DNA from: Tritrichomonas musculus
Taxonomy: Eukaryota; Parabasalia; Tritrichomonadida; Tritrichomonadidae
NCBI GenBank assembly: GCA_039105265.1
Contig: JAPFFF010000011.1
Coordinates: 5,084,001-5,148,000 of the forward strand
Length of the DNA: 64,000 bases
Direction of reading: 5' to 3'
Under the pieces are notes generated by a model. It made no database searches. It worked only from the letters and a program-made list of their open reading frames with translations, and was not told the DNA's origin. This document shows, in pieces, positions 4,450-64,000 of the stretch (the stretch's first letter is position 1; every line of letters begins with the position of its first letter). The position numbers and the translations under genes were made by a program.

Positions 4450-4478
4450 TTTTTGCTCGCAAAAAGGCGATTCATCGC
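4450..4478. repeat. Double-hairpin mini-insertion (chimeric pol fragment)
   Basis: Two perfect inverted repeats lie side by side: TTTTTGC-tc-GCAAAAA (4450-4465) and GCGAT-tc-ATCGC (4467-4478). In Mav-C the corresponding polymerase segment reads MKHNQSNQNQRD. Here it is ten residues longer (MKHNFCSQKGDSSLQTNQNQRD), an in-frame gain of 30 bp centred on the hairpins. Confidence 0.8.
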
Positions 4479-4844
4479 TTCAAACGAACCAAAATCAACG
4501 AGATATTTCAAAATGTGTTAGTGAAAAGGATTTCGAAGCATTCATGAAATTGTATGAATCAAATGAAACAGGTAAATGTCATTTATGTGGTGAACACTTT
4601 ACTTACAACAACAAACCGACACTTGACAGAATAGATAACAACAAAGGACATCAGATTGATAACTGTTTACTTGCTTGTGCTGAATGTAATCGTTTGAGAC
4701 AACGTGATGATGACAAGATAACAAGAACCAAAATACAATTGAAGAAATTCTGCAAGCTCCATCACCTGCCAACACTCATAACTGATGAAAAAGAATACTA
4801 CAATTTGAGAGAGAACATAACGGGAGGATTATCAAATGTACTTC

Positions 4845-4850
4845 ATCGAG
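4845..4850. other. Target-site half ATCGAG next to a TIR
   Basis: Polymerase sequence reads ...cttcATCGAG and the TIR begins at 4851 with AGTAGTATATGGG. The other half of the same target, ATCGAG followed by tgaacatt, is at 39534-39539 on the minus strand beside the second identical TIR. Together they make a 6-bp duplication as expected for Mavericks. Confidence 0.85.
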
Positions 4851-5135
4851 AGTAGTATATGGGTGGGCATTTGGGAGGTCAGATAAAAATGACCCCCTTG
4901 TCATAGGGTTTACAGGACCCAAACCTCAGCTACATGACTCAAAAAATCGATTAAATTTCAAAAATAGCACTTAAAATTAGCCTGTTTCGTGAGGTGTAAT
5001 GATTCTAAAAATAGAACTTTCAAAAATTTTTTATTTTTTTATCAGCAATTTATAATGTCAAACCAAGCCGAAACATTAAGCATCCTCATTAATAGAATCA
5101 ACAAAAAGCTAAAAGGATGGAGACCTGCATTAAAA
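4851..5135. repeat. Terminal inverted repeat of Mav-B, outer part
   Basis: It begins AGTAGTATATGGGTGGGC and matches the Mav-C TIR at 39540 almost base for base. It contains a block shared with the Mav-A TIR (tgggaggtcagat ... catgactcaaaaaatcg), including an inverted repeat GGTCA-N8-TGACC (4877-4894) and a GGTTT/AAACC pair. It continues into the 68-aa gene, where Mav-A interrupts it; the remainder resumes at 26957 and ends about 27075. Apart from these signals 4856-5054 holds no gene. Confidence 0.85.
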
Positions 5136-5141
5136 TACGTC
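5055..5141 (+). pseudogene. TIR-borne 68-aa gene of Mav-B, 5' part, split by Mav-A
   Basis: The first 29 codons (MSNQAETLSILINRINKKLKG...) run up to the TACGTC target site. The 3' part is 26957-27076. Removing Mav-A and one TSD copy restores 207 nt, the exact length of the intact gene, so the insertion is the only lesion. Confidence 0.85.
5136..5141. repeat. TSD TACGTC, left copy (Mav-A)
   Basis: TACGTC directly precedes the Mav-A TIR (AGAGAGTAAGG). An identical TACGTC follows the element at 26951-26956. Polintons are known to make 6-bp TSDs. Confidence 0.92.
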
Positions 5142-5584
5142 AGAGAGTAAGGGGGACCGTCTGGGAGGTCAGATAAAATGACCCCCCTCGTCATAGGGTT
5201 TACAGACCCCAAACCTCAGCTACATGACTCAAAAAATCGCCACTTTTTCAAAATTAGCCCTCGAAACTTTCACAAAATGGCATAGACAAATTTTGAATAA
5301 ATTGACAAACTCCCAAAAATAACAACAACGAAAAATAGAACTTTCAAAAATTTTTTATTTTTTTATCAGCAATTTATAATGTCAAACCAAGCCGAAACAT
5401 TAAGCATCCTCATTAATAGAATCAACAAAAAGCTAAAAGGATGGAGACCAGCATTAAAATACCTCTACGATAATGATGATATCATAGATGAAGTACTAAA
5501 AGAGATAAATCACTTTATTAATCAGCTAAAGAAATTCAACGGACCTGAACAATTAATAGCTGAACTTGAAGAACTCATTTATTA
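5142..5584. repeat. Left TIR of Mav-A (443 bp)
   Basis: It is the reverse complement of 26508-26950 with few differences and ends at the ctcatttatta shared by both copies. The outer 200 bp are non-coding: GGTCA-gataaaa-TGACC at 5167-5183, then a GGTTT/AAACC pair, then an A/T-rich tract before the 68-aa gene. The inner half encodes that gene. The protein-primed polymerase implies that origins lie at these ends. Confidence 0.9.
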
Positions 5585-5585
5585 A
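5379..5585 (+). CDS. TIR-encoded 68-aa helical protein, left copy (Mav-A)
   Basis: A short charged, probably all-helical protein (MSNQAETLSILINRINKKLKG...LEELIY). It lies inside the TIR, so a complete element carries two copies facing inward from each end, and homogenisation of the TIRs would keep them alike. An initiator-like TCAG lies 16 nt before the ATG, after a long T tract. No family is recognised. Being at the replication end, it might act on the ends, but that is only position-based inference. Confidence 0.7.
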   Translation: MSNQAETLSILINRINKKLKGWRPALKYLYDNDDIIDEVLKEINHFINQLKKFNGPEQLIAELEELIY

Positions 5586-5655
5586 AAAGATATCTGAAGT
5601 GTCTTCAATGACGTTTTTATTTTTGTTTTTTGTTTTTTAATTTCACTCTAAAGAT

Positions 5656-6114
5656 ATGTCAACACCAAAAGTTTATGATTACATCAATTCACTTATTGAT
5701 ATGTTGGATGAATCAGAGAAGTTCAAACAATGTGATTTCTCAATTCTGTGTGATAGATATCCAATACCTTGTGGAAAGGCTGCATATAAATCTAAAGTGA
5801 TATACATATCATTGAAGAACAAAGATAATGCATTTAAACGATTATATTATGATAAGATTGTTGAACTCGGGCTCGAATATATAACATTAACATCAAATGT
5901 TAGAAGAAGAATATCAACAACATCTATTGAGTTCTTCGTTGAAGGTTCAAATGAAGAGCAATCATTTAAAGAATACAAGTATTATAATTACAGCATAAGG
6001 AAAGCAACAGATAAGAAAACAAAAGAACTCATCGAACAGATGAGACAAAAATATAATATCAATACACCACAACTGTTTGTTGGTGTTCAACAACAAATTG
6101 TATTAGATGAATGA
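5656..6114 (+). CDS. Conserved 152-aa protein (Mav-A)
   Basis: It begins MSTPKVYDYINSLIDML and has a compact alpha/beta look, with four Cys in the first 40 residues and a basic segment (SNVRRRISTTSIEFF). It is present also in Mav-C. The start follows TCACTCTAAAGAT, which resembles the trichomonad initiator TCAYTYT. Its 3' end overlaps the convergent ATPase gene by 12 nt. I see no adenain-type His/Cys protease motif, so it is not the missing protease. Function unknown. Confidence 0.7.
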   Translation: MSTPKVYDYINSLIDMLDESEKFKQCDFSILCDRYPIPCGKAAYKSKVIYISLKNKDNAFKRLYYDKIVELGLEYITLTSNVRRRISTTSIEFFVEGSNEEQSFKEYKYYNYSIRKATDKKTKELIEQMRQKYNINTPQLFVGVQQQIVLDE

Positions 6115-7047
6115 AAGGTTATTAGTTCGAACATTGATTAAAACGAATTGATGTGCTTTCATTGTTCTGTATCGATTCCATAACTCTTCGAACTCTATTG
6201 GGAATGGAACTTGTTGATATATGTAGCCGAGTTTCTGTCGTGAATAACCACTGAAGATGAAGAATGATGTTGCATTATTTTTCCATTCTGTTGTTAAAGC
6301 TTTGAAGAACTGGATGTTAACGAATATGATTAGATTCTTATGTCGAAGCTGACTGATGGTATTGATAAAATAGGATGATTTAATTAGTTTCGATTTCAAG
6401 AAGTCTTCACAAAGAATGATAGTATTTAGTGGTTTATTTGGTTGACCTAGTTTATTGATATGAAGAAACTCAAACATATCGTTTAACTTCTTTTCATTTT
6501 GCTTCGCAAAAGGGGACTCCGTCCCTTCGATTACTATTTTTGGTGTTGATGAATATTTGTTATACAATTCTTTATATAAATCAAGTTGTTTAAGATATTC
6601 TTCAGCATTGCTGTCAGCAACAGTTTTTATTGGTAGCTGTATCAATTCGCGTTGGCTTTCGAATGTTGCATCATTGATTGTTCCGTTTCGTGATACATAA
6701 ACAATTAAATGAAAGCCAGCGTTCTTCATTCGAGACATTTGAATAACATCTCGTAGCATTATATGACTCTTTCCTTTACCTTGCTGACCAACGAGTATGT
6801 TCAATGAATTGTAATATGAATAAATACCGTTTGCGATCGGTCTGATTGATTCATTCTTTATTTTTGATTCATTGCGTTGATAAGCTTTGTTCATCTCATC
6901 ATCAATATTAAATGTCTTTTCATTAACAGTTGGTTTGAATGATTCATATTCAAATGCAAAGCTCATTTGGTCATCATCATAATCAGAGCTATTAGAAAAT
7001 AAAACCTCTTTATAATTAAACTGAGTGGGTTTCATGAAACGTTTCAT
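6103..7047 (-). CDS. ATP: A32/FtsK-like DNA-packaging ATPase (Mav-A)
   Basis: At 314 aa it has the size of Polinton packaging ATPases. Walker A is GQQGKGKS at residues 87-94. A Walker B-like strand NTIILCED is at about 208-215, and a later SFFIFSGYSRQK segment fits the sensor region. It is expected to drive genome packaging into capsids. The N-terminal 60 residues are acidic and probably disordered. It is ten residues longer than the Mav-C copy because of a double-hairpin insertion just before Walker B. It is transcribed towards the TIR and follows the 43-aa membrane protein gene. Confidence 0.88.
   Translation of the reverse strand: MKRFMKPTQFNYKEVLFSNSSDYDDDQMSFAFEYESFKPTVNEKTFNIDDEMNKAYQRNESKIKNESIRPIANGIYSYYNSLNILVGQQGKGKSHIMLRDVIQMSRMKNAGFHLIVYVSRNGTINDATFESQRELIQLPIKTVADSNAEEYLKQLDLYKELYNKYSSTPKIVIEGTESPFAKQNEKKLNDMFEFLHINKLGQPNKPLNTIILCEDFLKSKLIKSSYFINTISQLRHKNLIIFVNIQFFKALTTEWKNNATSFFIFSGYSRQKLGYIYQQVPFPIEFEELWNRYRTMKAHQFVLINVRTNNLSFI
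6497..6525. repeat. Double-hairpin mini-insertion in ATPase (Mav-A)
   Basis: Perfect inverted repeats TTTTGC-ttc-GCAAAA (6497-6511) and GGGAC-tcc-GTCCC (6513-6525) are adjacent. The Mav-C ATPase reads IVINEKKLN here and Mav-A reads IVIEGTESPFAKQNEKKLN: exactly ten extra codons. Confidence 0.88.
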
Positions 7048-7071
7048 TTCTTTAGTTTTCGTTAAAGCTCT

Positions 7072-7203
7072 TCATGAATACATTTTTGTTCTTATCTCTT
7101 CACTGAGTTCTGGTTCTTTGTCAGGCATCATTAAAGATACTTCAACAATCTTCACTAAAAATAAACCTGTTAATAATGAAACAACTAATATTTCATATAT
7201 CAT
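7072..7203 (-). CDS. 43-aa single-pass membrane protein (Mav-A)
   Basis: A short ORF with a hydrophobic helix at about residues 4-26 (ILVVSLLTGLFLVKIVEV) and an acidic tail (DKEPELSEE) ending KMYS. Homologues of exactly 43 aa sit between the ATPase and the 189-aa gene in Mav-C (41411-41542) and in divergent Mav-D (63442-63573), where the hydrophobic helix, PELxEE and the Tyr-Ser end are kept. That conservation across elements supports a real gene. A role in the virion membrane or at release is speculation. Confidence 0.8.
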   Translation of the reverse strand: MIYEILVVSLLTGLFLVKIVEVSLMMPDKEPELSEEIRTKMYS

Positions 7204-7213
7204 TTATTAGTTT

Positions 7214-7783: not shown

Positions 7784-7846
7784 ATTAAAGTTATTCGTTT
7801 TAGGTAAAAATAAAACCAATCAATGATGAGTCATTCATTGAATCAT

Positions 7847-8092
7847 TTACAAAGTCAACTGTTCAGCTGATTTGATTCTTTCACCGATTTGCTTTAATTG
7901 TATTTCAATTGATTTGATATCATTAAATAGTTGTTTATAAATTGACAATATATGAATCATTTTATCAAACTTCTCGCTTAATGCATCATCTTCAGAGTTC
8001 ATGCATTTTTCAAATATTTTGTCTTTGACCTTTCTAAACTGAGCATAAAGAGCTGATAAATCATTATTCAGTCCGTTAAGAGTACTATTCAT
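7847..8092 (-). CDS. 81-aa coiled-coil protein (Mav-A)
   Basis: A charged helical protein with heptad-like hydrophobic spacing (FDKMIHILSIYKQLFNDIKSIEIQL) ending ERIKSAEQLTL. It is present in Mav-C with the same length and neighbours but is not seen in the Mav-D segment. TTTATTTTTG and TTTAA precede its ATG. Confidence 0.65.
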   Translation of the reverse strand: MNSTLNGLNNDLSALYAQFRKVKDKIFEKCMNSEDDALSEKFDKMIHILSIYKQLFNDIKSIEIQLKQIGERIKSAEQLTL

Positions 8093-8129
8093 TTAAATCA
8101 AAAATAAATAAATTAATTAAATGATATTT

Positions 8130-8571: not shown

Positions 8572-11500
8572 ATGAGTTCGCGTTATTACTATCAAAAAGA
8601 TACCAAATCATTTGTTATTGAACAAATCAGGTATATCAATAATGAACTTCAATTAAAACCTCGCTTATCAACATCTAAACCTAGTGATTATGATGTTAAA
8701 CACTTCAAATCAATCTTAGAAAACTATCTAACTTCATTCGGTTTTAGAGAACATGAAGGTGATAGAATCAATGACATATCAATATTAGCTTTCGTCAATA
8801 GAATGAAAAGAGAAGCAGAAGAACAAGAAGAAGAGGAGGAAGAGGAACAATTTGAAGAAGAAGAACAAGATGATGAACAAAAACTAAAACAAAAACAAAT
8901 CGAGGACAATATTAAAATAGCTCATGATGCACTCAACAAAGCCCTTCAATTAATTAAATCTGAAAATATATTATTGAGACCATTACCGCCAAAGACAAAC
9001 AAACAACCTCAACGATATGAAGACATTCGATTCAACAATGAAAATGCTGAATTAATTGAATATCTCAAAAAGTTTAGCTATAAAGGTGTTCATTCAAAAC
9101 ATGATTCATATTTCATAATCAACGAACCTGAGAACTTTGATGAAGCAGTTGAAGCATGTAGTCATTTCATTGACCAATTCCCAAATGATAGTGAAAAGGT
9201 TGAACGATTAGATGAAGACAGTAAAGAACCGATTAAAATATATTACAAAAACGGAGTTTCATCAATTGAAGACATCAATGAATATTTAACTGAAACAGTA
9301 TTTAAACAAGAAGTGAAACCGTTCAAAATATATTTTCAATTGACTGGTATATTTGAGATACCACCAAAGAATGAAAGTGAAAGATATACATATGAGGCAA
9401 GTGATATTAATTGGAAGAATTATAAATCATCAATTCCGATAATTGTTAGAGAGAATAAAGATATTGATAAAATTAAACTGTATATTGAATCAAAGATTCA
9501 TGAATATGAAACCACTGCTTCAAACATCAAATTGTGTATCGTTTGGTCTGTTTCATTTACAATCTCTCGTGTCGTTAAGATAACAGGAAAGATTGATGAA
9601 GTTTCAGAATTGTTTGGCAAAAATAAATATATCATTATTGATAACGTTGATGATTGTTTATGTTGGTATCGATTTCTTGCTTGTTGTTTGTTTCCTGAAC
9701 TAACAAATCAAAACAAAGATGAAAAGAAAACAAAATATAATACAGCTAACAGAACCAAAGCAGCAAAGAAAATATTATGTGATGAACACGGAATAACTTA
9801 TTCAACTAAACCTACAAAAGAAGCAAATCAAATCATCAACTCGTTCAAAGGTATCACGATTGAAGAAATGAAAGAATCAGCCAAGAATCATAACATCAAT
9901 GTCAACATCTATGAATACAACCAAACTGAAACAGATAAAAAAGGCTTTTTCGATTTACAAGATCAATGGCATAACGTCGATGATGAAACAAAAACGTTTT
10001 CAGCTCTCTTGTATTCAAAGGATAAGATACTTCACATAATGTACATCATCAACGCTGAAGCATTAACAAATATTCATATTTGTCCTCATTGTGGTTCATA
10101 CATTCACAAAGGACATGAACATATGGATAGATTCAATAACCATGTCAAGAAATGTGAGAAGCTAGGAGGTAAATTCAAAAAGGATTTCATTCCTTCACGA
10201 GAAGCTTTGCCATATTGTCCACACATTTTAAACAATCCTGTTTATTTGTATTGTCTTTCATATGAACTTGAATGGAAGCCAACAATTCATTATATCACTT
10301 ATGATTTTGAAACAATGGAGCAAAAGATTGAAAAGAAAGTTAGTGATAAATCAGTTATCAATTCTCGATTGATTCCTTTGAGTGTTTCATCATGTGTGAA
10401 GCTTGATAAAGGTTTGATAACAAAGAACTTTGATATACGAACAAATGAATTCATTGCCAAATGGATTGACTGGTTATTTGTTGTTGGCTGTGATGTGTAT
10501 GTTGATAAATTGAATCATTTGAAGAGCTTTATTAAAGATAAATCGGAAGAAGAACTCAATAAAATAGATACATCATTGAAAACAATAACAGTGTTCGGTT
10601 TTAACTCATCACGATTTGATTCAAACTTATTCAAAGAGCAATTGATTAAAAATCATTGGTCTATCGATAGTGGAATGATTGGAACAGCTACATCATTGAA
10701 ACAATTTATATTGAAATCATCAAAGTATCCCATTCGATTACGATTCATTGATGCACAAGCATTTGTTGCTGGAGGAACACTCAAACAGTTTGGAATCGAT
10801 TTTGGCGGTATATCTAACAGTTCGAAAGGTGTATTTCCTTATGAAGCAATCAACAGTGATAATTATAATGAAGTGTTGTCAAAGAGTGAACCATTTGAAT
10901 ATGAAGACTTTTACAGTTATCTCAATCAAAAGAATCCATTAACGAAAGCTGATTATGAGGAGTATTTGATAGATTCAAAGAGGTTTGCAACACGTTGGGA
11001 TTATTTGTTATCATACAATGACAATGATGTTGAAATGATGATTAAACCGATTGATAATCTTATTCAAATGAATGCTGAATATAAAGTTGATTTGATTAGC
11101 AATCTTTCATTGTCAAAGAACGCATCATGTATCAAATATGCTCTTGCTTATAAAGATTTCAATCCGAAGAACGATTATGAAATCATAAACAATTCAAACA
11201 CATTTAAACCAACAATGAAATGGTGGATTAATAAATGTGATAACTATCGAAAGCAAGATGAAAAACATAACCAGACGAAAGAAAATAAAAGGGATTTAAC
11301 AAAATGTGTTAGTGAAAAGGATTTTGATGCATTCATGAAATTGTATGAATCAAATGAAACAGGTAAATGTCATTTATGTGGTGAACACTTCACATATGAA
11401 AACAAACCAACTCTTGACTGAATAGATAACAACAAAGGACATCAAATTGATAACTGTTTGTTGGCTTGCGCTGAATGTAATCGTTTACGACAACGTGATG

Positions 11501-13143
11501 ATGACAAGATAACAAGAACCAAAATACAATTGAAGAAATTCTGCAAGCTCCATCACCTGCCAACATTCATAACTGATGAAAAAGAATACTACAATTTGAG
11601 AGAGAACATAACGGGAGGATTATCAAATGTACTTCATCGAGTGAACATCAGAGGTCAAACATTAATCAATAAACTCAAATATGATGCCGTTAATGACAGA
11701 ATCATTAGCTATGACACTTCAAACATAGTTTCACACGTTGCTGGTATTGATTTCAATTCATTGTATCCTTCATCATTCAGTTCAGTAAAACATTCATTCA
11801 ATCCCTATCACGGAGGAATCATGTACATGCCTGGTTCATTTATAAAACGATTTGATGTTTATGATGAAGATGGAAACAAGAATGAAAAGGTATTTAATGC
11901 AGCAATGAATATCATTCAATCAAAGAAACGATTTGATGCAAACCCTGAGTTTATATTCAAAGCTGAAGTCAAATTAAGATGTCCGAAAAATAAAATAAAC
12001 GATTTGATTAACTTTCCCCCTGTGTTTAGAAATATCAATATAATGAATGATGAGCAAACGATTGGAAGCTATATGTACAAATATATGAAAGACAATAAAC
12101 TGAATTCAGCCGATAAAGAAACAAGAAAGCTGACAATGTTGCTTGATACATGCGGAACATTTATGACGTTCTCGAATTACCTTTTATGGTTTTTAATCGA
12201 CCACGGACTTATTGTTGATGACATTAAGAGCTTAAGTTTATATGAAGCTCATGACGGATTCAATCAATTTGTTTGTGAGTTTATGAAGAAGCGTCAAGAT
12301 ATATTGTCAGGAAAGGCACACGGGAACGAAAAGTTTTACAAGATTAGTATGAACGGATCTTACGGATATGACGGTATGAATTCAGAGAACTTTAATAAAG
12401 TCAGAATTGTTGATAAAAATAAAGCCTTTCAATTGATTGCATCCGATACTTATCGCAATGGTTGTAAATTGTCAAATGATTGTTATTTGATACAATCACA
12501 ACCTCATTCATTCAAATGTAATACATGTCTTCAGGAATCATTTTGGACATTAGATAACGCGAAATACTGGTATTTGACTTTTCTTTATGACTTTCTATAC
12601 AAATGCATTGACATGAATAAGATTCATTTTAACTCGGTCGATACAGATAGTCTGTACATGTCTATCGCTGGTGATATGAATAAACCGATTGACCAGTTGT
12701 TTGATTACGTCATCAAAGACAAATCATTTTATGATAAACACATTTATAGCTTCATGCCAAACCCTGCAATCAATGATGTATATGATGAGAAAAAGATTCT
12801 CGGTTGTTGTGTTGAGAAGTTTGGAGCAAATCAAGTTTCTTTATGCGCTAAATGTTATACCATTTGGTCAGATGACAAAACAATTTCATTAAAGCTCAAA
12901 GGTGTTTCATTGAAGAAGAACAACATCAAATCAAGTGATTACAAAAATGTCATTGAAAAGCAATCAGTAATGAAAGGAAAGAATATAAACCTTCAAATGA
13001 ATTCACAACTGATGAGTAAAATAACTGTTATCAAAAATGCTTTAACAGCAGCACATTCAAAAATGTTGGTATTATCAAATCATTGTTGTTGTCCTTATGT
13101 CAATGGTTTCACTGCAAAGGATTATTTCATTGAGAATCATTAA
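8572..13143 (+). pseudogene. PolB: Protein-primed family B DNA polymerase with one nonsense codon (Mav-A)
   Basis: The frame is open except for TGA at 11419-11421, where the intact Mav-C gene has CGA (Arg) in the HNH loop LDRIDNN: a single C-to-T change. Both halves remain in the same frame. The order is an acidic low-complexity segment, a Cys/His cluster (CPHCGSYIH ... HVKKC), ExoI YDFETME, ExoII FGFNSSRFD, ExoIII YNDNDVEMM, HNH domain, motif A DFNSLYPS, motif B KISMNGSYG, motif C VDTDS. Without readthrough the product would lack the palm. The lesion makes Mav-A dependent on another copy, unless the stop is suppressed or is a sequencing error. Confidence 0.9.
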
Positions 13144-13235: not shown

Positions 13236-14009
13236 ATGAGCAGCAACACAACAAACGCAGCCACAAACACAAACGCCACAACTCAACCAATCAATAATGA
13301 TTATGAATACATTCAATACAATGAACATTTAAGAATCATTCATTCAAAACAGGATGATATGTATCAAGTACAATCAATTATTACAGCTTGTCATTCAAAG
13401 AAAAGAGTAAATGATTGGTTTGAAAGCAAAACAACAAAGGAAATCATTGATGAAATGGGTAAAAGTTCTACTGCGGAAAATTCCGCACTAGACAAAATAT
13501 ATGAAAAACGCGATAATTTACCTATTAATCTTCGTGGATTTTATATTCATCGTCTTCTTGTAAATAATGTTGCAATGTATGCATCACCTCGCTATTCAAT
13601 TTACATCATGAAGCTTCTTGATTCACATTTTGAACATGAACGACAACAATTGGTTGAAGAAATACAACAAAAGAAACCACGGCTCGTACCATCTAACAAA
13701 GAACACAATTACAAGTATTTGATTTGGAAAGAAACCAATGATGCTGAAAACACAATTCTTCATCTTGTGAGAAGAAACAAACGAACATTCAGAGCTGTAT
13801 CAACTCATAATAATGAGAATGAAAGATTTATATTCAAAGATAATTTGCCGATAGCGATGAGTCCGAACGAAGACATTAAAGAACTTGTCAAGAACAACTT
13901 CCCTCGTAATGATTACACCATCAATGGTTGCAACATTATAATAAAGAATGAACGACTGGAACAATTACACACACTCATTGATGAATACTTCAATCAATTT
14001 CAATCATAA
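13236..14009 (+). CDS. KilA-N domain protein, cargo slot 1 (Mav-A)
   Basis: At about residues 45-130 the sequence has the KilA-N signature: a region around VNDWF, then GFYIHRLLVNNVAMYASPRYSIYIMKLLD, equivalent to the usual 'hxxlxxxxAxWxSPxFxxxV' core. KilA-N proteins are DNA-binding regulators common in phages and large DNA viruses. The C-terminal 100 residues are a separate unrecognised domain. In Mav-B and Mav-C this place holds an unrelated HNH nuclease, so the gene is exchangeable cargo. A hairpin cluster at 13464-13487 encodes residues about 77-84, between the two halves of the KilA-N core. Confidence 0.82.
   Translation: MSSNTTNAATNTNATTQPINNDYEYIQYNEHLRIIHSKQDDMYQVQSIITACHSKKRVNDWFESKTTKEIIDEMGKSSTAENSALDKIYEKRDNLPINLRGFYIHRLLVNNVAMYASPRYSIYIMKLLDSHFEHERQQLVEEIQQKKPRLVPSNKEHNYKYLIWKETNDAENTILHLVRRNKRTFRAVSTHNNENERFIFKDNLPIAMSPNEDIKELVKNNFPRNDYTINGCNIIIKNERLEQLHTLIDEYFNQFQS
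13464..13487. repeat. Hairpin pair inside the KilA-N gene
   Basis: AGT-tct-ACT (13464-13472) runs directly into the strong TGCGGAA-aa-TTCCGCA (13472-13487). No second copy of this gene is available, so an added length cannot be shown. The structure matches the other double-hairpin insertions. Confidence 0.6.
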
Positions 14010-21740: not shown

Positions 21741-22121
21741 TCAATAAATTAATAAACAACTGAATATAAATGATTCAGGTTCAATAACGTTTCCTTTCAT
21801 ATCTGTAAACCATAAATGATATTCTTTTTTTGTGTTGTTCAGACACTCATATTTACGATATTTGGTTTGTCTTCTGTTAGCAAGCATTATGAAATGGTCA
21901 CAGAAAGGCATGAATTCAACTATATCTGAATGAACCATCAAATCACCGACAATATGTTGATTGACAACAGCCCCGCAATACTGGGCAACAATATACTTCT
22001 TGTTGCGACTATAAATGAAATCATCAGGAAGATTAAAATCTTTTGTTTGTGTGTGATAGTATCGTTTTGTGATTGCCAACTTCGTTGACCCAAGCTTTGC
22101 TTGTGATTGTTTAGCTTTCAT
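21741..22121 (-). CDS. Conserved 126-aa protein overlapping integrase (Mav-A)
   Basis: This is the same protein as the 116-aa genes elsewhere, but after MKAKQ it has ten extra residues (about SQAKLGSTKL), encoded by a double-hairpin insertion at 22077-22103. The start overlaps the integrase end by 11 nt (22111-22121). The rest is closely conserved (FNLPDDFIYSRNKKYIVAQYCGAVVNQH). Function unknown; the linkage suggests an integrase accessory. Confidence 0.75.
   Translation of the reverse strand: MKAKQSQAKLGSTKLAITKRYYHTQTKDFNLPDDFIYSRNKKYIVAQYCGAVVNQHIVGDLMVHSDIVEFMPFCDHFIMLANRRQTKYRKYECLNNTKKEYHLWFTDMKGNVIEPESFIFSCLLIY
22077..22103. repeat. Double-hairpin mini-insertion in the 126-aa gene (Mav-A)
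   Basis: CAAC-ttc-GTTG (22077-22087) and CAAGC-ttt-GCTTG (22091-22103) lie three bases apart. The surrounding GTGATTG is present on both sides of the inserted stretch and once in Mav-C, compatible with a short direct repeat at the insertion point. The protein grows from 116 to 126 aa, exactly 30 bp. Confidence 0.88.
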
Positions 22122-30395: not shown

Positions 30396-30453
30396 ATGAA
30401 TTGATTTCATTAAATAATCGTCAATAAATAATATCTTTATTTTTGCGATTCAA

Positions 30454-56293: not shown

Positions 56294-56326
56294 TTGAATC
56301 GCAAAAATAAAGCATTAATTTATGAA

Positions 56327-56355
56327 GGAACTCTGTTCCCTTTTGCAAAGCAAAA
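56327..56355. repeat. Double-hairpin mini-insertion between integrase and MCP (Mav-C)
   Basis: GGAAC-tct-GTTCC (56327-56339) and TTTTGC-aaa-GCAAAA (56341-56355). The same interval in Mav-B is about 29 bp shorter and lacks both hairpins. The second arm sequence TTTTGC/GCAAAA recurs in the ATPase insertion of Mav-A. This one is intergenic. Confidence 0.85.
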
Positions 56356-56380: not shown

Positions 56381-58324
56381 TTATTCATTTGCTTGTGAAC
56401 CTTCTGGTGTTGAATCATCATGATATTCTAAACCGTCAAGTGATAGTTTAAAGTAAGTATCACGAGTGATGAATAATTGTGTTGGGGGTGGTCTGGTGAT
56501 GGTTCCATCTGGCTCAACAACATTGTAATATGTATCATCAGCTCCTGTATATATTGGTTGCCCATTGACTTGTATCTGAACGTTTCCAAAACCTCCATCA
56601 AGTCCGTCATAACAATATCCTGCACTTGCTCGTTCTGTTTGAATGTTGAATACAAATGATGTCGCATCACTAATTGTATTCTTGTATCTCTTACCGTTAG
56701 CGTCATTCTTTGGCATTGTCATCGAATCCTCAAATTCCTTTGTGCATGAAAGAGTGATTGCGTCTAAATCACCAGCCGTTAATTGATTTTCAAAGAATCG
56801 TGCACCAATAGTTGAAACGTTTTCGTCTGGGAAGTTCTTTCCACCAATATTCAAGAAACAGTTTTGATAAACTGGATTTTCAAAGACTGTTAAATCATTA
56901 TGATGCTTTGGAAACATGATTGATAAATTAGTTGCATTGATTAATGGAATATTCAATGTTGACTTGATTCCGTTTGCTGCTGGAGCGATTGGGAAAGCAT
57001 GATAATCAACTTTTTGTGAAGGAATGATTAAACCTTGTCTTAAAATGTCTTCAATTCCTTGTCTTGTAGCTTCACAAACTCCAAAGCCTTGCATATTAGA
57101 TTTACAAGCTGTGATGGTCATTCGATTAACAGTTAATGTCGCTGTTTGTTTTGAATAATGAGCGCTCATCAACTTGTTGGCTTCAGTTTTAGATACAAAG
57201 TTAACGTAAACATGACCTGCATGTGATGGTTGAGGTAATTTACCATGTTCTTTGGTATAATGGGCTTGACAAATTGCTTTATTATCATCAGTCTTTTCAA
57301 TTCCAAGTTCAGTAAATTCATCATCAGTAAAGCTAAATATTAATGAACAATTTTCAATCAGTTCATCGAAATCACCTCCAGATGCAGATACGTATTGTTC
57401 TCTAACTTCATACTTCAATTGATATTTCGTTGGTGTTGGTTCAGGTGATGGTGGGTCTGGATTGTCTCCAGGTCCTGGAATCACAGCTTGATTACCGATT
57501 TGTGTGAATTGATGACGAAGATGACCACGGGCTTTGATTTCCTTTAATCTATCGAGTTCATCCATCGATATTGAATCATTATCTTCAAGAAATACTTTCG
57601 CTTCTGCAACTGTGTAAGGGTCTAATACTGCCCAAACAAGACCAGCGGGACTAACTTGAAAACGAATTGATAAATCACCAATGATTCCGTTAGGGAATAA
57701 ATCGAATGCCTGTAATGCAAGCAAATCATCAAAAGGAACATTCAAATCAAATTCGACTTCACTTCTTCCTGTGTTCTTAAATGAATTCAAGTTAACATAA
57801 GCTCCTGCATGTGTTTGTGAATAGTTGCTAATGTTTTCCCACAATGAATGAACGAATCTGCGACGTTTCTTCTCGGCTTCTGGTTTAACTGAAGAATATA
57901 AGAAGCCCTCACGAATGCATTCATTCTGTTGGTATCCGACATTGACATTATTATGAAGAATCTCTAACCTGTCAAACAACTGGTTTGATGATTTGAAACC
58001 GACAAACAGTTTGTACAAGTTGTTGGGGTCATTGATTTCATTTAATTTACTCATATCTGTATTCAATGACAAATCTAATTTAACGTGAAATGTTAAGAAA
58101 CCTTTATCAATATCACTTATGAAGTGGTCAGGATGTGTTAAACTTATTTGCGAATATTGTCCTTGATGAAATGGAGCTGGTTGGTCATGACAGTCAACAG
58201 TTCTAAATGAAAATGAACGCGTACCGTCATTGACATTAATCATGTTTCTCATCTCTTCAAATGCATGAAGAACGTTTCCTGTTTCAGTGCGAAGATTATG
58301 GGCTCTCTCGTTTCTGTATAACAT
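56381..58324 (-). CDS. MCP: Major capsid protein with variable extra domain, 647 aa (Mav-C)
   Basis: The capsid halves are very close to Mav-B. The linker between them is short (DNPDPPSPEPTPT), and the following domain (YQLKYEVREQYVSASGG ... SHAGHVYVNFVSK) is only remotely like that of Mav-B. The final residues also differ (YHDDSTPEGSQANE). TCATAA abuts the ATG. Confidence 0.83.
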   Translation of the reverse strand: MLYRNERAHNLRTETGNVLHAFEEMRNMINVNDGTRSFSFRTVDCHDQPAPFHQGQYSQISLTHPDHFISDIDKGFLTFHVKLDLSLNTDMSKLNEINDPNNLYKLFVGFKSSNQLFDRLEILHNNVNVGYQQNECIREGFLYSSVKPEAEKKRRRFVHSLWENISNYSQTHAGAYVNLNSFKNTGRSEVEFDLNVPFDDLLALQAFDLFPNGIIGDLSIRFQVSPAGLVWAVLDPYTVAEAKVFLEDNDSISMDELDRLKEIKARGHLRHQFTQIGNQAVIPGPGDNPDPPSPEPTPTKYQLKYEVREQYVSASGGDFDELIENCSLIFSFTDDEFTELGIEKTDDNKAICQAHYTKEHGKLPQPSHAGHVYVNFVSKTEANKLMSAHYSKQTATLTVNRMTITACKSNMQGFGVCEATRQGIEDILRQGLIIPSQKVDYHAFPIAPAANGIKSTLNIPLINATNLSIMFPKHHNDLTVFENPVYQNCFLNIGGKNFPDENVSTIGARFFENQLTAGDLDAITLSCTKEFEDSMTMPKNDANGKRYKNTISDATSFVFNIQTERASAGYCYDGLDGGFGNVQIQVNGQPIYTGADDTYYNVVEPDGTITRPPPTQLFITRDTYFKLSLDGLEYHDDSTPEGSQANE

Positions 58325-59347: not shown

Positions 59348-59536
59348 ATGAGTGAACTAACTGAATACAAGAAAGAAATACCCGAATTAAAACGAATCAA
59401 ACGAGGATTAAAAGAAAAGTGTTATGATTATAAACAATGTCTAAACAATATCAAATCAGGAATGTTAGGTTCTGACGGTCTTGCTGTTCGTGAATCTCTT
59501 ATTGAAGACATCAACAAAGCTAGAAGCATCACTTAA
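59348..59536 (+). pseudogene. 75-aa coiled-coil gene, 3' truncated at the Mav-C/Mav-D junction
   Basis: The sequence follows the Mav-A and Mav-B genes to ...SLIEDIN and then changes at about 59512-59517 into MCP sequence of Mav-D on the other strand. The open frame runs six foreign codons further (KARSIT). The leucine heptads of the C-terminal helix are lost. Confidence 0.85.
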
Positions 59537-61273
59537 AGTATTCTTGTAGCGAACTCCGTTTGCATCATTCTTTGGCATAGTCATTGAATCCTCAAATTCC
59601 TTTGTGCATTGTAATGATATTGCATCAAGGTCTCCAGCGGTTAATTGATTTTCAAAGAACCTTGCACCAATTGTGCTAACATTTTCATCTGGGAAGTTCT
59701 TGCCACCAATATTGAGATAACAATTTTGATATACTGGATTTTCGAAAACAGTGAGGTCATTATGATGCTTTGGAAACATAATTGACATTGTTGTAACATT
59801 AATTAATGGAATATTCAATGTTGACTTAATTCCATTTGCGGCAGGAGCAATTGGGAATGAATGGTAATCAACTTTCTGAGATGGGATTATAATTCCTTCA
59901 CGGAGAATATTTTCAATACCTCTGCGAGTAGATTCACAGACACCATAACCTTGCATATTTGATTTACATAATGTGATTGTCATTCTGTTTACAGTTAATG
60001 TAGCTTTCTGTGATGAATATGTTTCGTTGTGAAGTTGTAATTTAGCATCATGAATTGATTGAAGAGTCTGCTTAGCAGAAACAACTGGTGTTTTAACAAT
60101 TTGCCAAGCATAATATCTTCCATTCTTGTCAGAATGATTTAATGGAGGTAATGTTACAGCAGGATTATGAACACAAATTTCTTCATCAGTTGCACCTGGT
60201 TGGAGTCCAAATTCTTCAAATTCTTCCTTTGTGTAACTGAAATTGAATTCCAAATCAGTAAGAATATCAGTGTAACCAGTACTTCCATCATCATTATCCC
60301 ATTGTTCACCAATTCGATATTGAATCTTGTATTTAACAGGTGTTGGAGTTGGTTCAGGAGATGGGTCTGGAGTTGGTTCAGGAGATGGTTCGGGAGATGG
60401 GTCTGGAGATGGAGTTCCAGGTCCTGGTATAATAGCTTCATTACCAATTTGTGTAAATTGATGTTTCAAATGACCACGAGCTTTAATTTCTTTCAATCGT
60501 TCTAATTCAGCAGATGTAACAGAATCATTATCTTCAAGATAAGCCTTTGTTTCAGCAACAGTATAAGGGTCAATTGCTGCCCAAACTAATCCTGCAGGAG
60601 TTACTTGGAAACGAATTGATAAATCACCTATGATTCCATTTGGGAATAAATCGAAAGCTTGAAGGGCAAGTAAATCATCAAATGGAACGTTCAAATCAAA
60701 TTCAACTTGTGATTTACCATTAGATTTGAATGAATTTAGATTAACATAAGTACCTGCAACAGTTTGTGAATAATTTGAAACGTTTTCCCAAAGTGAATGA
60801 ACAAATCGTCTTCGCTTTTTTTCAGTTTCTGGTTTCACAGCAGAGTATAAAAATCCTTCTCGAACACATTCGTTTTGCTGATATCCAACATTTACATTAT
60901 TATGAAGAATTTCCAATCTGTCGAATAATTGATTTGAAGATTTAAGTCCGACGAATAATTTGTAGAAGTTATTTGGGTCATCAATTTGTTGTAATTTAGC
61001 TAAATCAGTATTCAATTGTAAATCCAATTTGACATGAAATGTTAAGAATCCTTTATCAACATCAGAAATGAAATGGTCTGGATGCGTTAATGAGATTTGA
61101 GAATATTGTCCTTGATGAAATGGTGCAGGTTGGTCATGACAGTCAACAGTTCTGAATGAAAATGAGCGTGTACCATCATTAGTATTAATCATTTCACGCA
61201 TCTTATTAAATGTATCAAGAACGTTTCCTGCTTCAATTTTGTAATTATGTGCTCTTTCGTTGCGATACAACAT
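59516..61273 (-). pseudogene. MCP: Major capsid protein, C-terminally truncated (Mav-D)
   Basis: It matches the other MCPs to ...YKNTLSDASSFV and then breaks into Mav-C sequence, losing about 75 C-terminal residues. The linker is repetitive (PSPDPSPEPSPEPTPDPSPEPTPTP), followed by a domain (YKIQYRIGEQWDN ... YYAWQIVKT) related to that of Mav-B. The N-terminal capsid half is well conserved. The loss of the second jelly-roll end should prevent capsid assembly. Confidence 0.83.
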
Positions 61274-61299
61274 TTGACTTTTTATGGAATAAAAAGACT

Positions 61300-61316
61300 T
61301 TCAAACGAAGTTTGAA
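61300..61316. repeat. Single hairpin before the 84-aa gene (Mav-D)
   Basis: TTCAAAC-gaa-GTTTGAA, 7-bp stem with a 3-nt loop, in the short MCP/84-aa gene interval. Confidence 0.6.
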
Positions 61317-61365
61317 TGAATAACAAAAAAAGTACTATTATGGGTCTTTTTTCGTAATGAAAACA

Positions 61366-61620
61366 ATGGGTATCGGAATCTTCAAAAAAATGAAAAACGC
61401 TTTTAAATCTGTAGGTAATACAATAAAGAATGTTGCAACTAAGGTTGGTAAAGCACTTCCCAAAGTTGTTGAAGTTGGTAAAAGAGTAACTAATGCTGTA
61501 AAACCTGTTTTGGGTGGAATACCTCTTATTGGTGATGCTGTTAGAGCAATTGATACAGGATTAAATTTTGCTGACAAAGGTCTTAAAATTGGTAAAAGTT
61601 TAATTGATGAAGTCGCGTAA
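61366..61620 (+). CDS. Amphipathic 84-aa virion-type peptide (Mav-D)
   Basis: I prefer the ATG at 61366 (MGIGIFKKMKNAFKSVG), which matches the A-C start, over the ATG at 61357. The hinge reads VLGGIPLIGDAVRAIDTGL, so the Gly/Pro pattern is preserved while the residues changed. Confidence 0.7.
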   Translation: MGIGIFKKMKNAFKSVGNTIKNVATKVGKALPKVVEVGKRVTNAVKPVLGGIPLIGDAVRAIDTGLNFADKGLKIGKSLIDEVA

Positions 61621-61628
61621 GCGCCTGA

Positions 61629-61643
61629 GAACACTTTGTGTTC
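61629..61643. repeat. Hairpin after the 84-aa gene (Mav-D)
   Basis: GAACAC-ttt-GTGTTC, preceded by the weaker CGC-gtaa-GCG (61614-61623) that spans the stop codon. Together they have the spacing of a double-hairpin unit. Confidence 0.6.
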
Positions 61644-61685
61644 GAAGTCGCATGAAAATGATTAAATTGTATTTTTTTATTTTAA

Positions 61686-62219
61686 ATGGATTTGAAAGTA
61701 ATTAATGAAATAACTACTGAAATAAAGAATTTTAAATCAATTGAGGAGTTCAATCTGTACTATCAGAAACACAAAGATGACATGAACAACCAGACGACTC
61801 AATATCTAAATCGGGTTTACAAAATTGTTACACCAGATGGTGTTGAATACAGAATCACAAAAAAGAATTGTCAAAAAGAAGGTACAAAACGAGTTGGGGG
61901 AGATATATTTTTAAAGAAAGTTGTCAAAACTAATGAATTGAAAGAACTTGAACAAGATGTTATTAAAGCAGAACAACAATTGTTAAACAATCGTTGCTCA
62001 GAGCTTCGACTGAAAGTCTCAGGACTCGAAGAGTCCGTAGCGCATGATATTGAGAATCTCAAAAGTATGTTCTCACAAAATTTGTCAACTTTTGATAACG
62101 AGATTAAAGATTTGAAACAAAGCTATGAACTCAAATTCACAACATTAGATAAAAAAATTGCTGAATTAACCAATACTGTAAATCAGATTGCCAAATATAT
62201 TAACCAACAAATGTTTTAG
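61686..62219 (+). CDS. 177-aa protein with coiled-coil tail (Mav-D)
   Basis: The N-terminal domain is recognisable (FKSIEEFNLYYQKHKDDMNNQTTQYLNRVYKI ... DIFLKK). The C-terminal coiled coil is unrelated in detail and contains a hairpin cluster at 61996-62036 encoding about NRCSELRLKVSGLEES. It overlaps the convergent 88-aa gene by 4 nt. Confidence 0.7.
   Translation: MDLKVINEITTEIKNFKSIEEFNLYYQKHKDDMNNQTTQYLNRVYKIVTPDGVEYRITKKNCQKEGTKRVGGDIFLKKVVKTNELKELEQDVIKAEQQLLNNRCSELRLKVSGLEESVAHDIENLKSMFSQNLSTFDNEIKDLKQSYELKFTTLDKKIAELTNTVNQIAKYINQQMF
61996..62036. repeat. Triple hairpin in the 177-aa gene (Mav-D)
   Basis: GCTC-a-GAGC (61996-62004), GACT-gaa-AGTC (62008-62018) and GGACTC-gaa-GAGTCC (62022-62036) in a row. 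The coding frame stays open through all three. Confidence 0.75.
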
Positions 62220-62482
62220 ATTTTATCGCATCGAGGGACAACTGAATGATTTAATGAATAAGTGTGAAAATTCAATTTTTTTGTTGTTGATACTTGAGGT
62301 TCATGTTGAATACTTCCTTTATCTTCATATTTCTTAACAGTTGGTGCAGAATTAATTCTGGTACGTTCTTTTTGCATTTTAAGTTGTAATCTATCGTAGT
62401 GATTCATTCTTTTATCATCATGAATGGTTCGTTTTTGTTCATAACTCGTAGAGTTTGAACTCACTTGTGAGTGAAAGGACAT
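62216..62482 (-). CDS. 88-aa basic protein (Mav-D)
   Basis: Homologue of the 77-aa genes. Ten extra residues lie between the first residues and (R/K)T(V/I)HDDK, encoded by the double hairpin at 62443-62472. The rest aligns (DRLQLKMQKERTRINSAPTVKKY). Confidence 0.72.
   Translation of the reverse strand: MSFHSQVSSNSTSYEQKRTIHDDKRMNHYDRLQLKMQKERTRINSAPTVKKYEDKGSIQHEPQVSTTKKLNFHTYSLNHSVVPRCDKI
62443..62472. repeat. Double-hairpin mini-insertion in the 88-aa gene (Mav-D)
   Basis: AACTC-gta-GAGTT (62443-62455), three bases, then ACTCAC-tt-GTGAGT (62459-62472): exactly 30 bp from end to end. The protein is longer by ten residues at this place than in A, B and C. Confidence 0.9.
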
Positions 62483-62497
62483 TTTTGCTTCGATTAA

Positions 62498-62728
62498 ATG
62501 TCTGAATTAAACGAATATAAGAAGGAGATTCCTGAACTTAAACGTATCAAACGAACCCTCAAAGAAAAATGTTATGATTACAAGCAACATCTAAATAATG
62601 TCAAATCTGGAATGCTTGGTTCCAGTGGGCTTGCTGTTCGTGAATCATTAATTGAAGATATTAATTCATTAAAGGAAAAAGTAAAAAAATTGGAAAACGA
62701 ATTGAATGAATTAGCTAACAAGGATTGA
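62498..62728 (+). CDS. 76-aa coiled-coil protein (Mav-D)
   Basis: A close homologue of the 75-aa genes (MSELNEYKKEIPELKRIKRTLKEK ... LKEKVKKLENELNELANKD). In Mav-D it is followed by the 222-aa gene instead of a TIR. Confidence 0.72.
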   Translation: MSELNEYKKEIPELKRIKRTLKEKCYDYKQHLNNVKSGMLGSSGLAVRESLIEDINSLKEKVKKLENELNELANKD

Positions 62729-62765
62729 GTAATCTACGAATAAAGGTTTTTTTAGATTGAAATCA

Positions 62766-63431
62766 ATGTCGAATGTATTACGGAAAGCAAAAATATTAAG
62801 TTCTGAAAATGATGCTTCGGTAAAACAGAGCCAAGAAACTAATGTTGAAATCAAAATCAAACCATCGAATTCACAACCGGTTGGTCAACCAATTAGTCAA
62901 CCTGTTTATTACCCAAATGTTCCCCAAATGAATTCACAATCTAGGGACGTAAATTTTACTATACCGGAGGAGAATTCTCAATATCAATTTCAACCTCCAA
63001 CAAGCAAAGCGCCAGCCGGAGCTGGCTTGCCTGCGACTATTGTCCGAGACAAGGGTATCATCGATTTGGGAAACCACATAGTGGCTGAGGGTGAAGCCCG
63101 AAATGAGATTGAAGACTTAACTGTTAAGAACAAATTTTTAGAAACACTTCTTTCAATTTATGAATTAAATCCACTTCGTGTAAATAATTATTTGGTTTGT
63201 CACTCAAATTCATTGATGGAATTAATTAAAATACTAACACATGCTGATAAAGTTGAACTTATTATTGATGAAGATTCTGGTTGTACGGGATGTGTATCGA
63301 AGAATAAATATTTAGAAATCCAACGAATTCTTGTCACAAAAGATGGTAAATCAAATGATTTGAAATATGGTTACAATGATGTTTATGCACAACTTGTTCG
63401 ATATGGTATTTCACTTAAATTATGTGTTTAA
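62766..63431 (+). CDS. 222-aa homologue of the 189-aa protein (Mav-D)
   Basis: The start at ATG 62766 (MSNVLRKAKILSSENDASVKQ) is chosen over an upstream TTG. The conserved C-terminus has LVCHSNSLMELIKIL, the Cys pair in SGCTGCVSK and YAQLVRYGISLKLCV. Between the Pro/Gln-rich part and the C-terminal domain it has 20 extra residues, encoded by two hairpin clusters (63011-63052 and 63074-63099). Confidence 0.75.
   Translation: MSNVLRKAKILSSENDASVKQSQETNVEIKIKPSNSQPVGQPISQPVYYPNVPQMNSQSRDVNFTIPEENSQYQFQPPTSKAPAGAGLPATIVRDKGIIDLGNHIVAEGEARNEIEDLTVKNKFLETLLSIYELNPLRVNNYLVCHSNSLMELIKILTHADKVELIIDEDSGCTGCVSKNKYLEIQRILVTKDGKSNDLKYGYNDVYAQLVRYGISLKLCV
63011..63052. repeat. Hairpin cluster in the 222-aa gene, first (Mav-D)
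   Basis: GCCAGC-cgga-GCTGGC (63011-63026) and TTGTC-cga-GACAA (63040-63052). It encodes APAGAGLPATIVRDK, absent from A and C. Confidence 0.72.
63074..63099. repeat. Hairpin cluster in the 222-aa gene, second (Mav-D)
   Basis: CCAC-ata-GTGG (63074-63084) and GGGT-gaa-GCCC with one G-T pair (63089-63099). With the first cluster it accounts for the 20-residue excess over A and C, that is two units of ten codons. Confidence 0.72.
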
Positions 63432-63441
63432 ATTTATTCAA

Positions 63442-63573
63442 ATGTTAACTGAAATTCTTTTGGGAACTATTTTGGTTGTTCATGTTATTGAATTGTGTGT
63501 AATAATTGCTGTTTTCAAAGAAGATGAACCCCCTGAACTCACAGAGGAGTTGTGCTCGAAGCTTTACTCATAA
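63442..63573 (+). CDS. 43-aa single-pass membrane protein (Mav-D)
   Basis: Hydrophobic helix (ILLGTILVVHVIELCVIIAVF), then an acidic tail with PPELTEEL and a Tyr-Ser end. Same length and same neighbours (189-aa homologue and ATPase) as in A and C, although the sequence has diverged; this is the best evidence that the 43-aa gene is real. Confidence 0.8.
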   Translation: MLTEILLGTILVVHVIELCVIIAVFKEDEPPELTEELCSKLYS

Positions 63574-63576
63574 TAA

Positions 63577-64000
63577 ATGTTAAAACCCAGCAAATTTGAT
63601 TACAAAACAATATTTTTTTCAGATACTTCTGACTATGATGATGACTTTGAGTCATTCGAAGAACACAAGATGATTATGAAGCCTGTTATGATTGAAAAGT
63701 CCTCTCGCTCTGCGAGCTCGAGCTCTGCGAGATTTGATATTGATTTTGAAATGAATCGAGCGTACAAAAAAAATGAATCAAAAATAATGTCAGAATCAAT
63801 TCGTCCAATTGGTCCTGGAATCTATGCTAATTATAATTCGTTAAACATTATTGTTGGAGCACAGGGTAAAGGTAAATCACACATTGTATTAAGAGATATA
63901 ATTCAAATATCTCGATTGAAGGAGTCAAATGTACATCAAATTGTGTATATTAGCAAGAATGGAGTTATAAATGATTCTACATTTGAAGCTCAACGCGAAT
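63577..64000 (+). CDS. ATP: A32/FtsK-like packaging ATPase, cut by window end (Mav-D)
   Basis: It starts MLKPSKFDYKTIFFSDTSDYDDD. Walker A GAQGKGKS is present, followed by HIVLRDIIQISRLK. Ten extra residues (about SSRSASSSSA) before FDIDFEMNRAY coincide with a hairpin cluster at 63704-63725. The Walker B region lies beyond the window. Confidence 0.85.
   Translation, partial: MLKPSKFDYKTIFFSDTSDYDDDFESFEEHKMIMKPVMIEKSSRSASSSSARFDIDFEMNRAYKKNESKIMSESIRPIGPGIYANYNSLNIIVGAQGKGKSHIVLRDIIQISRLKESNVHQIVYISKNGVINDSTFEAQRE
63704..63725. repeat. Double-hairpin mini-insertion in ATPase (Mav-D)
   Basis: CTCGC-tct-GCGAG (63704-63716) overlaps the perfect palindrome GAGCTCGAGCTC (63714-63725). Counting from DYDDD to the Glu-Met-Asn of EMN(R/K)AY, the protein has 37 residues against 27 in Mav-A, exactly ten more. 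Confidence 0.85.

Follow-up and report, generated by a model that had tools for sequence, protein, structure and literature searches.

Double-hairpin units of 30-36 bp in Maverick elements of Tritrichomonas musculus as probable minimal mobile elements

What places exactly ten extra codons, folded into two adjacent hairpins, at unrelated positions in virus-like genes? The question is raised by a 64,000-nucleotide stretch of the Tritrichomonas musculus genome (contig JAPFFF010000011.1, positions 5,084,001 to 5,148,000, forward strand; hereafter the window), in which copies of genes from integrated Maverick elements differ by short segments of this kind. An earlier note, written from the window sequence alone, had proposed a family of such insertions and suggested checks of the sizes of indels, of the density of hairpins in them relative to controls, of the rest of the genome and of RNA reads. 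T. musculus is a commensal of the mouse gut, and its repeat-rich genome is described as a long-read assembly of 193.49 Mb (PMC11978803); the pattern searches reported here scanned 193.4 Mb in 746 contigs. The units found are mostly 30 or 36 bp long, with stems of 4-7 bp, typically 3-nt loops closed by C-G, and a linker that is often C or CTGA/TCA. They are best explained as minimal mobile elements of two adjacent hairpins that move as folded single strands, a reading to which we assign a probability of roughly 0.6.

The name Maverick comes from the earlier note; the features that speak for it are a KilA-N domain, an ATPase-like open reading frame (ORF) for which many homologues exist, and an integrase match that stays below threshold. 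Among 18 window proteins searched against Pfam, KilA-N was detected and the integrase (rve) match fell below the cut-off. Comparison of the window with itself showed repeated stretches, several of them 90-99% alike.

Three families of units, designated F1, G and F2, recur with conserved sequence. F1 (30 bp) reads A - GGRAC nnn GTYCC - C - TTTTGC nnn GCAAAA, G (30 bp) reads TCTCGC nnn GCGAG CTCGAGC nnn GCGAGA, and F2 (36 bp) reads AGCT GCGA nnnn TCGC TG CCTCCG nnnnn CGGAGG A. The genome search, made by pattern, gave 240 matches for F1 at up to two mismatches, 39 for G and 141 for F2, against 0 for the control in each case. The earlier note had held that structure rather than sequence is kept in these insertions; one-off structures do exist, but at least these three families have a conserved sequence. 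In all three, the same unit with set ends occupies unrelated sites, with empty counterparts for a minority of them.

Nine distinct F1 sites were read, seven of which carry near-identical 30-mers. At the other two the first hairpin is a different one, GAAGC..GCTTC in locus L083 and GCGAT..ATCGC at a window site described below as site A, and the total length is still 30 bp. TGA precedes the unit at eight of the nine sites and T follows it at all nine; at site A the TGA is missing from the empty copies. Each of the nine is within or next to sequence akin to the Mavericks of the window; the L083 site has a KilA-N-like ORF and a DUF5906 helicase-type ORF nearby. Most matches are on contigs that range from hundreds of kilobases up to megabases, not on organelle DNA, and the F1 sites that were read are in Mavericks.

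The G unit, with point changes in a few cases, was found in 18 sequences that represent ten distinct sites and both orientations. Four copies in both orientations are spread over 7 kb of contig C143, and in L100 visual inspection places the unit within the arm of a different hairpin. F2 occupies five distinct sites, where L110/L111 and L112, which have a common right flank, are counted once. Among the best matches, L110/L111 resemble no other fetched sequence beyond the F2 unit, each other and L112; from ORFs judged by eye, we take them for another Maverick type. Empty counterparts were found at two of the ten G sites and at two of the F2 sites. At the L034 site, removal of 30 bp from the filled F1 copy reproduces an empty copy precisely at the junction; apart from substitutions, the same holds for the L065 and G sites, with an alignment ambiguity of 1-2 bp. 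The comparison of filled and empty copies at L034, L065 and G sites revealed no clear target-site duplication, and by eye G and F2 have no strong target motif.

Within the window, the sequences and hairpins were found as the earlier note had described them, including those at 13464-13487 and 61300-61316, and the ten-codon gains that it reported at 4450, 6497-6525, 22077 and 63704 correspond to exactly 30 bp in pairs of filled and empty DNA. Site A (4450..4479, minus strand) is a 30-bp double hairpin with stems of 7 and 5 bp and 2-nt loops in a 307-aa chimeric pol piece; it faces a 30-bp gap in the window copies at 11271 and 45593. Site B (6496..6525, minus strand), a member of F1, adds ten codons to an ATPase ORF (6103-7047, minus strand), and the comparison of the window with itself also gives a 30-bp gap here. 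Sixty ATPase loci were read, half of them from the 40 listed matches of a filled query and half from the 40 of an empty one; site B is filled in 30 (one haplotype), empty in 29 (13 haplotypes) and unscored in one, a split that does not represent a frequency since the loci were fetched with one query of each kind. In an alignment of 34 rows (32 of 88 homologues and two window proteins) the insert is missing from 32, and its ten residues are carried only by the filled protein of the window and by P0001, which indicates that the insertion is derived. Site D (56326..56355, plus strand), also F1, lies outside long ORFs and is filled at the same place in L001 and L084; the gain of about 29 bp reported there proved to be 30 bp relative to a copy near 30422 with diverged flanks, from which the unit is missing. 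Site G (63703..63732, plus strand) lies in the ATPase ORF of the right-hand Maverick and holds a 30-bp unit of family G, TCTCGC...GCGAGA. For this element, eight further copies (8 of 40 scored matches) were aligned with that of the window; site G is filled in the window, L089 and L091 and empty in the other six of the nine copies. In L086 an inverted G unit lies about 90 bp from this site.

Taken together, these are discrete units with set ends at many sites, with units inside units, differences between close copies and, for several, empty sites. Of the suggestion in the earlier note that this is a mobile or polymerase-generated Maverick element, the mobility is well supported, and the polymerase-generated origin is something we only infer. 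Sites with known surroundings are so far all in Mavericks; host DNA was covered by pattern search only and is too sparsely sampled for the units to be called absent there. The F1 pattern had no match in viral contigs and no exact match in a prokaryote genome collection, and no relatives of the ATPase were found in the viral contigs; spread outside the assembly is thus seen via protein clusters only.

Indels of 18-120 bp with well-matched flanks were catalogued in 93 sequences (338,704 bases) and grouped into 25 events, two of them tandem repeats. Eight of the other 23 are exactly 30 bp long (one, L065, was fetched by pattern), which makes this the commonest indel size, followed by 36 bp with three events. 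Site A was missed by the flank-identity filter and so lies outside the event list; it was counted from its gap relative to the window copies. Further hairpin-bearing events measure 18, 31, 36, 42, 45 and 75 bp, and an insertion of 33 bp was seen separately, so that the earlier claim of exactly ten codons describes the commonest size and not all of them. Hairpin content was compared with that of 2000 random segments matched in length. Of the 20 events that were neither tandem nor pattern-fetched, 14 are rich in hairpins at p<0.05, where one is expected, and eight are so at p<0.01; these 20 still come from loci picked around the genes of the earlier note. When its sites were excluded, 8 of 14 events remained at p<0.05 (L008, which is among them, resembles a tandem repeat) and 5 of 14 at p<0.01. 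In a harsher test, in which each insert was shuffled against itself, significance was reached among the 30-bp events by L005, L034, L065 and the insert at window 22077 (p 0.010-0.015). Any two adjacent hairpins, counted without a G/C filter, are not in excess in the window (61, compared to about 67 per shuffle). With G/C pairs required in both stems, the window contains six double hairpins, compared to a mean of 0.7 and a maximum of 3 in 40 shuffles, and all six were already on the list of the earlier note. Its expectations of preferred indel size and of hairpins concentrated in indels were thus borne out.

Units outside the families share a design only, that of triloops closed by C-G. This closure was found in 23 of 25 distinct triloop hairpins in a list compiled by hand. 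In the genome, GGCAC nnn GTGCC has 84 matches compared to one for its G-C-closed mirror CCGTG nnn CACGG, and CAGGC nnn GCCTG has 34 compared to two for the mirrored stem, both stems being the analyst's choice and not random draws. TTTTGC nnn GCAAAA has 286 matches (mirror, 14), largely F1 itself. A non-hairpin pattern of the same composition gave 33 matches and its mirror 17; one identical loop occurs in 24 of the 33, which suggests copies of one repeat. Eight of the 84 GGCAC places were fetched, and five of these have a second perfect hairpin within 5 nt, compared to 0.25 per random place (p 0.026). The linkers of the five double hairpins are TCA, TTA, CTGA, CTGA and ACTAA, the two CTGA cases not being independent because their second hairpin is common to both. 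DNA mini-hairpins that combine a GNA loop with two or more G-C pairs are described as extraordinarily stable, GCGAAGC melting at 78 degrees (PMC4686876), and the second hairpin of F1 contains this heptamer where its loop is GAA.

The stems of F1 also change in pairs. In ten distinct but related F1 rows from nine sites, 94.5% of the pair cells are standard. Three of the 11 pairs are changed on both sides, which was matched by 8 of 500 shuffles, and five cells are changed on both sides, which was matched by none of the 500; we regard this as support for paired change, not proof. At one site the loop is flipped, reading AAG in L068 and L069 and CTT in L070 and L071. Template switching between the arms of short inverted repeats is reported to homogenise arms and flip spacers (PMC8604942), and paired change therefore need not mean selection on RNA.

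Units located in genes are mostly in-frame insertions. The earlier note had supposed that frameshifts and stops are avoided, which applies in part: of the 22 inserts listed, 13 have no stop in any of the six frames (1.9 expected) and nine do. The open ones include G, F2 and 8 of 10 F1 variants; since ten of the 22 rows are F1 variants, openness as a design feature is, when counted by family, no more than suggestive. Protein indels were counted among 88 ATPase homologues and among 120 listed of 175 homologues of a 224-aa gene of the right-hand part of the window, using pairs at least 78% identical. Distinct internal indels of at least 3 aa numbered 50 and 76, respectively, and 10 aa was the commonest length in both sets (8 and 14 indels, the figures for the 224-aa gene being those among the homologues listed). 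The pooled 22 indels of 10 aa compare with a mean of 8.75 for lengths 8, 9, 11 and 12 (Poisson p about 1e-4; ATPase alone, p 0.05), in a protein set that is only partly independent of the assembly because a few of the proteins are T. musculus records. A search of the 88 ATPase homologues with the insert peptides gave 20 matches, compared to 10 in a shuffled control, and one weak match, that of a further unit which lies inside site E (see below), accounts for 12 of the 20. The proteins P0088, P0025 and P0070 contain G-type peptides, read in three frames. Since the serine-rich peptides of G also score in shuffles (0.1 to 1.2), only P0025 and P0070 were used as support; P0088 shows no source and may be this genome's own, and it was not used as independent evidence.

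A mechanism may be outlined from these features. Mavericks in general replicate with a protein-primed polymerase, exposing long single strands. On such a strand a unit would fold into very stable mini-hairpins, and the folded single strand would be copied or released and then joined or copied into a new place. The target specificity would be low (TGA^T for F1), and units that keep the frame would survive in genes. Later template switching within each hairpin would homogenise the arms and flip the loops, the stem sequence drifting and the structure persisting.

A 1516-aa pol-type ORF (window 42915-47465) contains an HNH/endonuclease VII-like region, which matches phrog_1035 over residues 862-977 (E 2.6e-10). 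Endonuclease VII-like nucleases act on branched DNA. As an agent that moves the units, this region is a candidate only, and its sole tie to them is that site A, at about codon 893 of the ORF, lies inside the matching region. The region, at about 45501-45846, also matches phrog_3118, and the other copy of the ORF (8572-13143) consists of two ORFs, not one. A Pfam search with three pol-type ORFs gave nothing above the cut-off, and a search of the PDB with the 1516-aa ORF gave no match.

Several points weigh against the units being minimal elements that move as folded single strands. The movement is proposed from comparisons of sequences, for a mobilising enzyme there is no more than a candidate, and, as paralogous copies recombine, some of the sharing could be due to gene conversion. 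Only a minority of the F1, G and F2 sites have empty counterparts. The Y1 transposase profile PF01797 had no match in the genome, while five of 14 control genomes were positive. No DNA polymerase match was obtained for the 1516-aa ORF, and the name of the element leans on the earlier note, the ATPase-like ORF, KilA-N and the weak integrase match. Six of the 20 scored events are not rich in hairpins (window 9654, 51222 and 23178, L034 995, L064 and L009), the first of them being exactly 30 bp long and without a hairpin. When shuffled against themselves, the 30-bp inserts of L086, L087, L089 and window 9654 were not significant, and neither were G (p 0.35 and 0.66), the insert at site H1 (see below) and several others; the case for G therefore rests on its repeated sites, not on folding. 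In the F1 covariation, a control slid by one position (-1) scored 0.156 compared to 0.137, and further pair types were fewer than in shuffles. Finally, a 35-bp unit in L090 breaks the reading frame.

The competing explanation that survives best, though we consider it unlikely, is that an undetected dedicated enzyme (a single-strand transposase, an integrase or an HNH nuclease) recognises the folded hairpins and moves the units in trans; it differs from our preferred explanation in the moving step only. REP/BIME units (repetitive extragenic palindromes and bacterial interspersed mosaic elements) are thought to be moved in this way by RAYT (REP-associated tyrosine transposase). The set ends, the two orientations of G, the TGA before F1 at eight of nine sites, the lack of a clear target duplication and the HNH/endonuclease VII-like region of the pol-type ORF would all suit such an enzyme. 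Against it stand the lack of a PF01797 match and of a strong target motif for G and F2, and stems so diverse that a single enzyme would have to read structure only.

That no mobile unit exists, and that double hairpins are made on the spot by polymerase fold-back or template switching, is in our opinion improbable. In its favour, the two hairpins of G nearly duplicate one another, several units have a neighbour within about 100 bp, and template-switch mutations are known for loop flips and homogenised arms (PMC8604942). They would explain loop inversion and arm homogenisation after insertion, but not like 30-mers at unrelated sites. All four arms are missing from the empty sites, and the near-identical 30-mers at the ten G sites and at seven of the nine F1 sites have already weakened this explanation.

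Somewhat less probable again is an RNA route, in which a structured RNA or unit transcript is copied back to DNA, or the unit acts in mRNA as a bypass element or ultra-short intron. As judged by eye for 16 coding units, the sense strand carries the purine-rich loops in 13 and the opposite strand in two, and one is mixed; the 13 include four F1 units, units related to each other are not independent, and the unit inside site E (a 17th) is not counted. Such a bias could stem from codon use, transcription or an RNA step. Most coding units are open in the frame used, and removal or bypass is thus not needed. The units end in A..A (F1), T..A (G) and AGCT..A (F2) and lack the GT..AG of ultra-short spliceosomal introns, and a search of the window against Rfam gave no match at curated cut-offs.

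Ordinary in-frame indels or slippage in fast-evolving viral proteins, with hairpins by chance, would fit the tandem-repeat indels in the same loci and the unfiltered hairpin scan, but are very improbable given the G/C-filtered scan, the hairpin-rich indels, the stem-to-mirror ratios of 84:1 and 34:2 and the G and F2 matches compared to 0 in controls, and for the three families they are refuted, since each family recurs at 5-10 sites and has 0 control matches. An assembly or polishing artefact, conceivable in a long-read assembly of a repeat-rich genome (PMC11978803), can be dismissed with similar firmness, as the insertions occur in protein clusters from other sources, with the F1 peptide in P0001 (lgn), G-type peptides in P0025 and P0070 (ena) and those of sites H1 and H2 in P0089 (ena).

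These units resemble several known systems in part. Mitochondrial double-hairpin and other repetitive hairpin-forming elements of fungi, sponges and other organisms are described as short, potentially mobile and occasionally located in coding genes (PMC2800124). The likeness lies in two adjacent hairpins as one repeated unit; in contrast, the units described here belong to a parabasalid, where they sit in virus-like Mavericks integrated into multi-megabase contigs, are commonly 30 and 36 bp long, are often in-frame in genes and include three families whose ends are the same from site to site. Rickettsia palindromic elements (RPE), of which several families are reported in-frame in unrelated protein genes (PMC10969869), are likewise palindromic in-frame insertions. 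However, RPE are bacterial and about 150 bp long, while these units are mostly double hairpins of 30-45 bp in mobile or viral genes. REP/BIME are short, non-coding hairpin units that are often paired, and to this extent similar; here, no Y1 transposase was matched, many units are inside genes and no foot sequence is common to all. Miniature inverted-repeat transposable elements (MITEs) are non-coding repeats with inverted repeats. They have both properties in common with the units, which are far shorter, lack a clear target-site duplication and have no terminal inverted repeats common to the families. In the literature on Mavericks/Polintons, hairpins and palindromic or double-hairpin elements, covered by title and start of abstract and with most subscription journals outside the coverage, no description of such units was found among the papers listed. 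Neither the mitochondrial double-hairpin elements, which are similar in build, nor RPE, which similarly keep the frame, cover units of 30-36 bp in Mavericks.

A unit of 30 bp is too small to encode an enzyme, and yet two dozen distinct sites with such units were read (9 + 10 + 5), which bears on how little a mobile element needs. They provide a many-copy system for statistical tests of how mitochondrial double-hairpin elements and RPE move. They also bring new peptide segments into virus-like proteins, and software that dismisses 30-bp indels of viral genes as noise would overlook them. We tentatively suggest, with slightly more doubt than belief, that the units may belong to a superfamily of the smallest mobile elements, whose identity would be a folded shape (two C-G-closed triloop mini-hairpins with a short linker and paired drift of the stems), spread as a folded single strand by a Maverick-encoded activity, perhaps in thousands of copies, and continually supplying viral proteins with new in-frame peptides some ten residues long.

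Further units were found in the window. Site C (22077..22106, minus strand) is a 30-bp double hairpin near the start of a 126-aa ORF; the unit is absent at window 3135, window 55210 and L001. A 9-bp sequence, CAATCACAA, flanks this insertion on both sides (window 22077-22115), by chance or as a trace of joining. Two hairpins at 61629-61643 and 61996-62036, for which the earlier note had no comparison copy, now coincide with length differences. The first, GAACAC TTT GTGTTC, belongs to a 31-bp difference at 61621..61651 (strand not set; hairpin score p 0.0455 relative to random segments). Comparison of window 61600-61651 with the start of L086 showed two tandem related hairpin units in L086, with a paired change between CAC ATAA GTG and CGC GTAA GCG and with second stems GACC TTT GGTC and GAACAC TTT GTGTTC. 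The second stretch, 61996-62036, contains site F (62006..62038, plus strand), a 33-bp double-hairpin insertion with linker TCA in a 177-aa ORF, which is present in three of nine copies (window, L085 and L087) and absent from L086 and L088; in L089-L092, 75 bp around it are missing.

Site E (62443..62472, minus strand) is a double hairpin with linker TGA in an 88-aa ORF, filled in the window and in all eight fetched relatives. The double hairpin is as the earlier note described it, but the gain of ten residues claimed there has no empty DNA copy among these nine; the comparison is with homologues, 61-70% identical at the protein level, that start after the position of the unit. A further hairpin unit lies inside site E in L085, L087 and L091 (45 bp) and in L090 (the frame-breaking unit of 35 bp). 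The 20-residue gain noted at 63011-63099 in the 224-aa ORF resolves into two separate 30-bp insertions, both absent from L092: site H1 (63008..63037, plus strand), a hairpin unit, and site H2 (63071..63100, plus strand), a double hairpin also absent from L091. H2 reads CCAC ATA GTGG - CTGA - GGGT GAA GCCC, and its G-T pair is G-C in other copies; an extra 18 bp lie inside H2 in L086 and L089.

Some minor observations were made outside these sites. In L002, a distant relative, three double hairpins with unrelated stems lie within 1.3 kb (1625-1657, 1821-1849 and 2894-2923), two of them in a homologue of the 224-aa gene. Double hairpins in L016 (298-327), L039 (389-415) and L054 (11-37) are located beyond the part common to the ATPase loci, possibly in host DNA or another element. 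A 39-bp indel at window 23178-23216, half of which resembles F2 and whose fold is imperfect, is possibly a decayed unit. The ORF at 23347-25215, for which Pfam gave no match, is one of a group of related ORFs of 602-692 aa, the others being at window 28317-30395, 56381-58324 and 59465-61273; they could be considered candidate capsid proteins.

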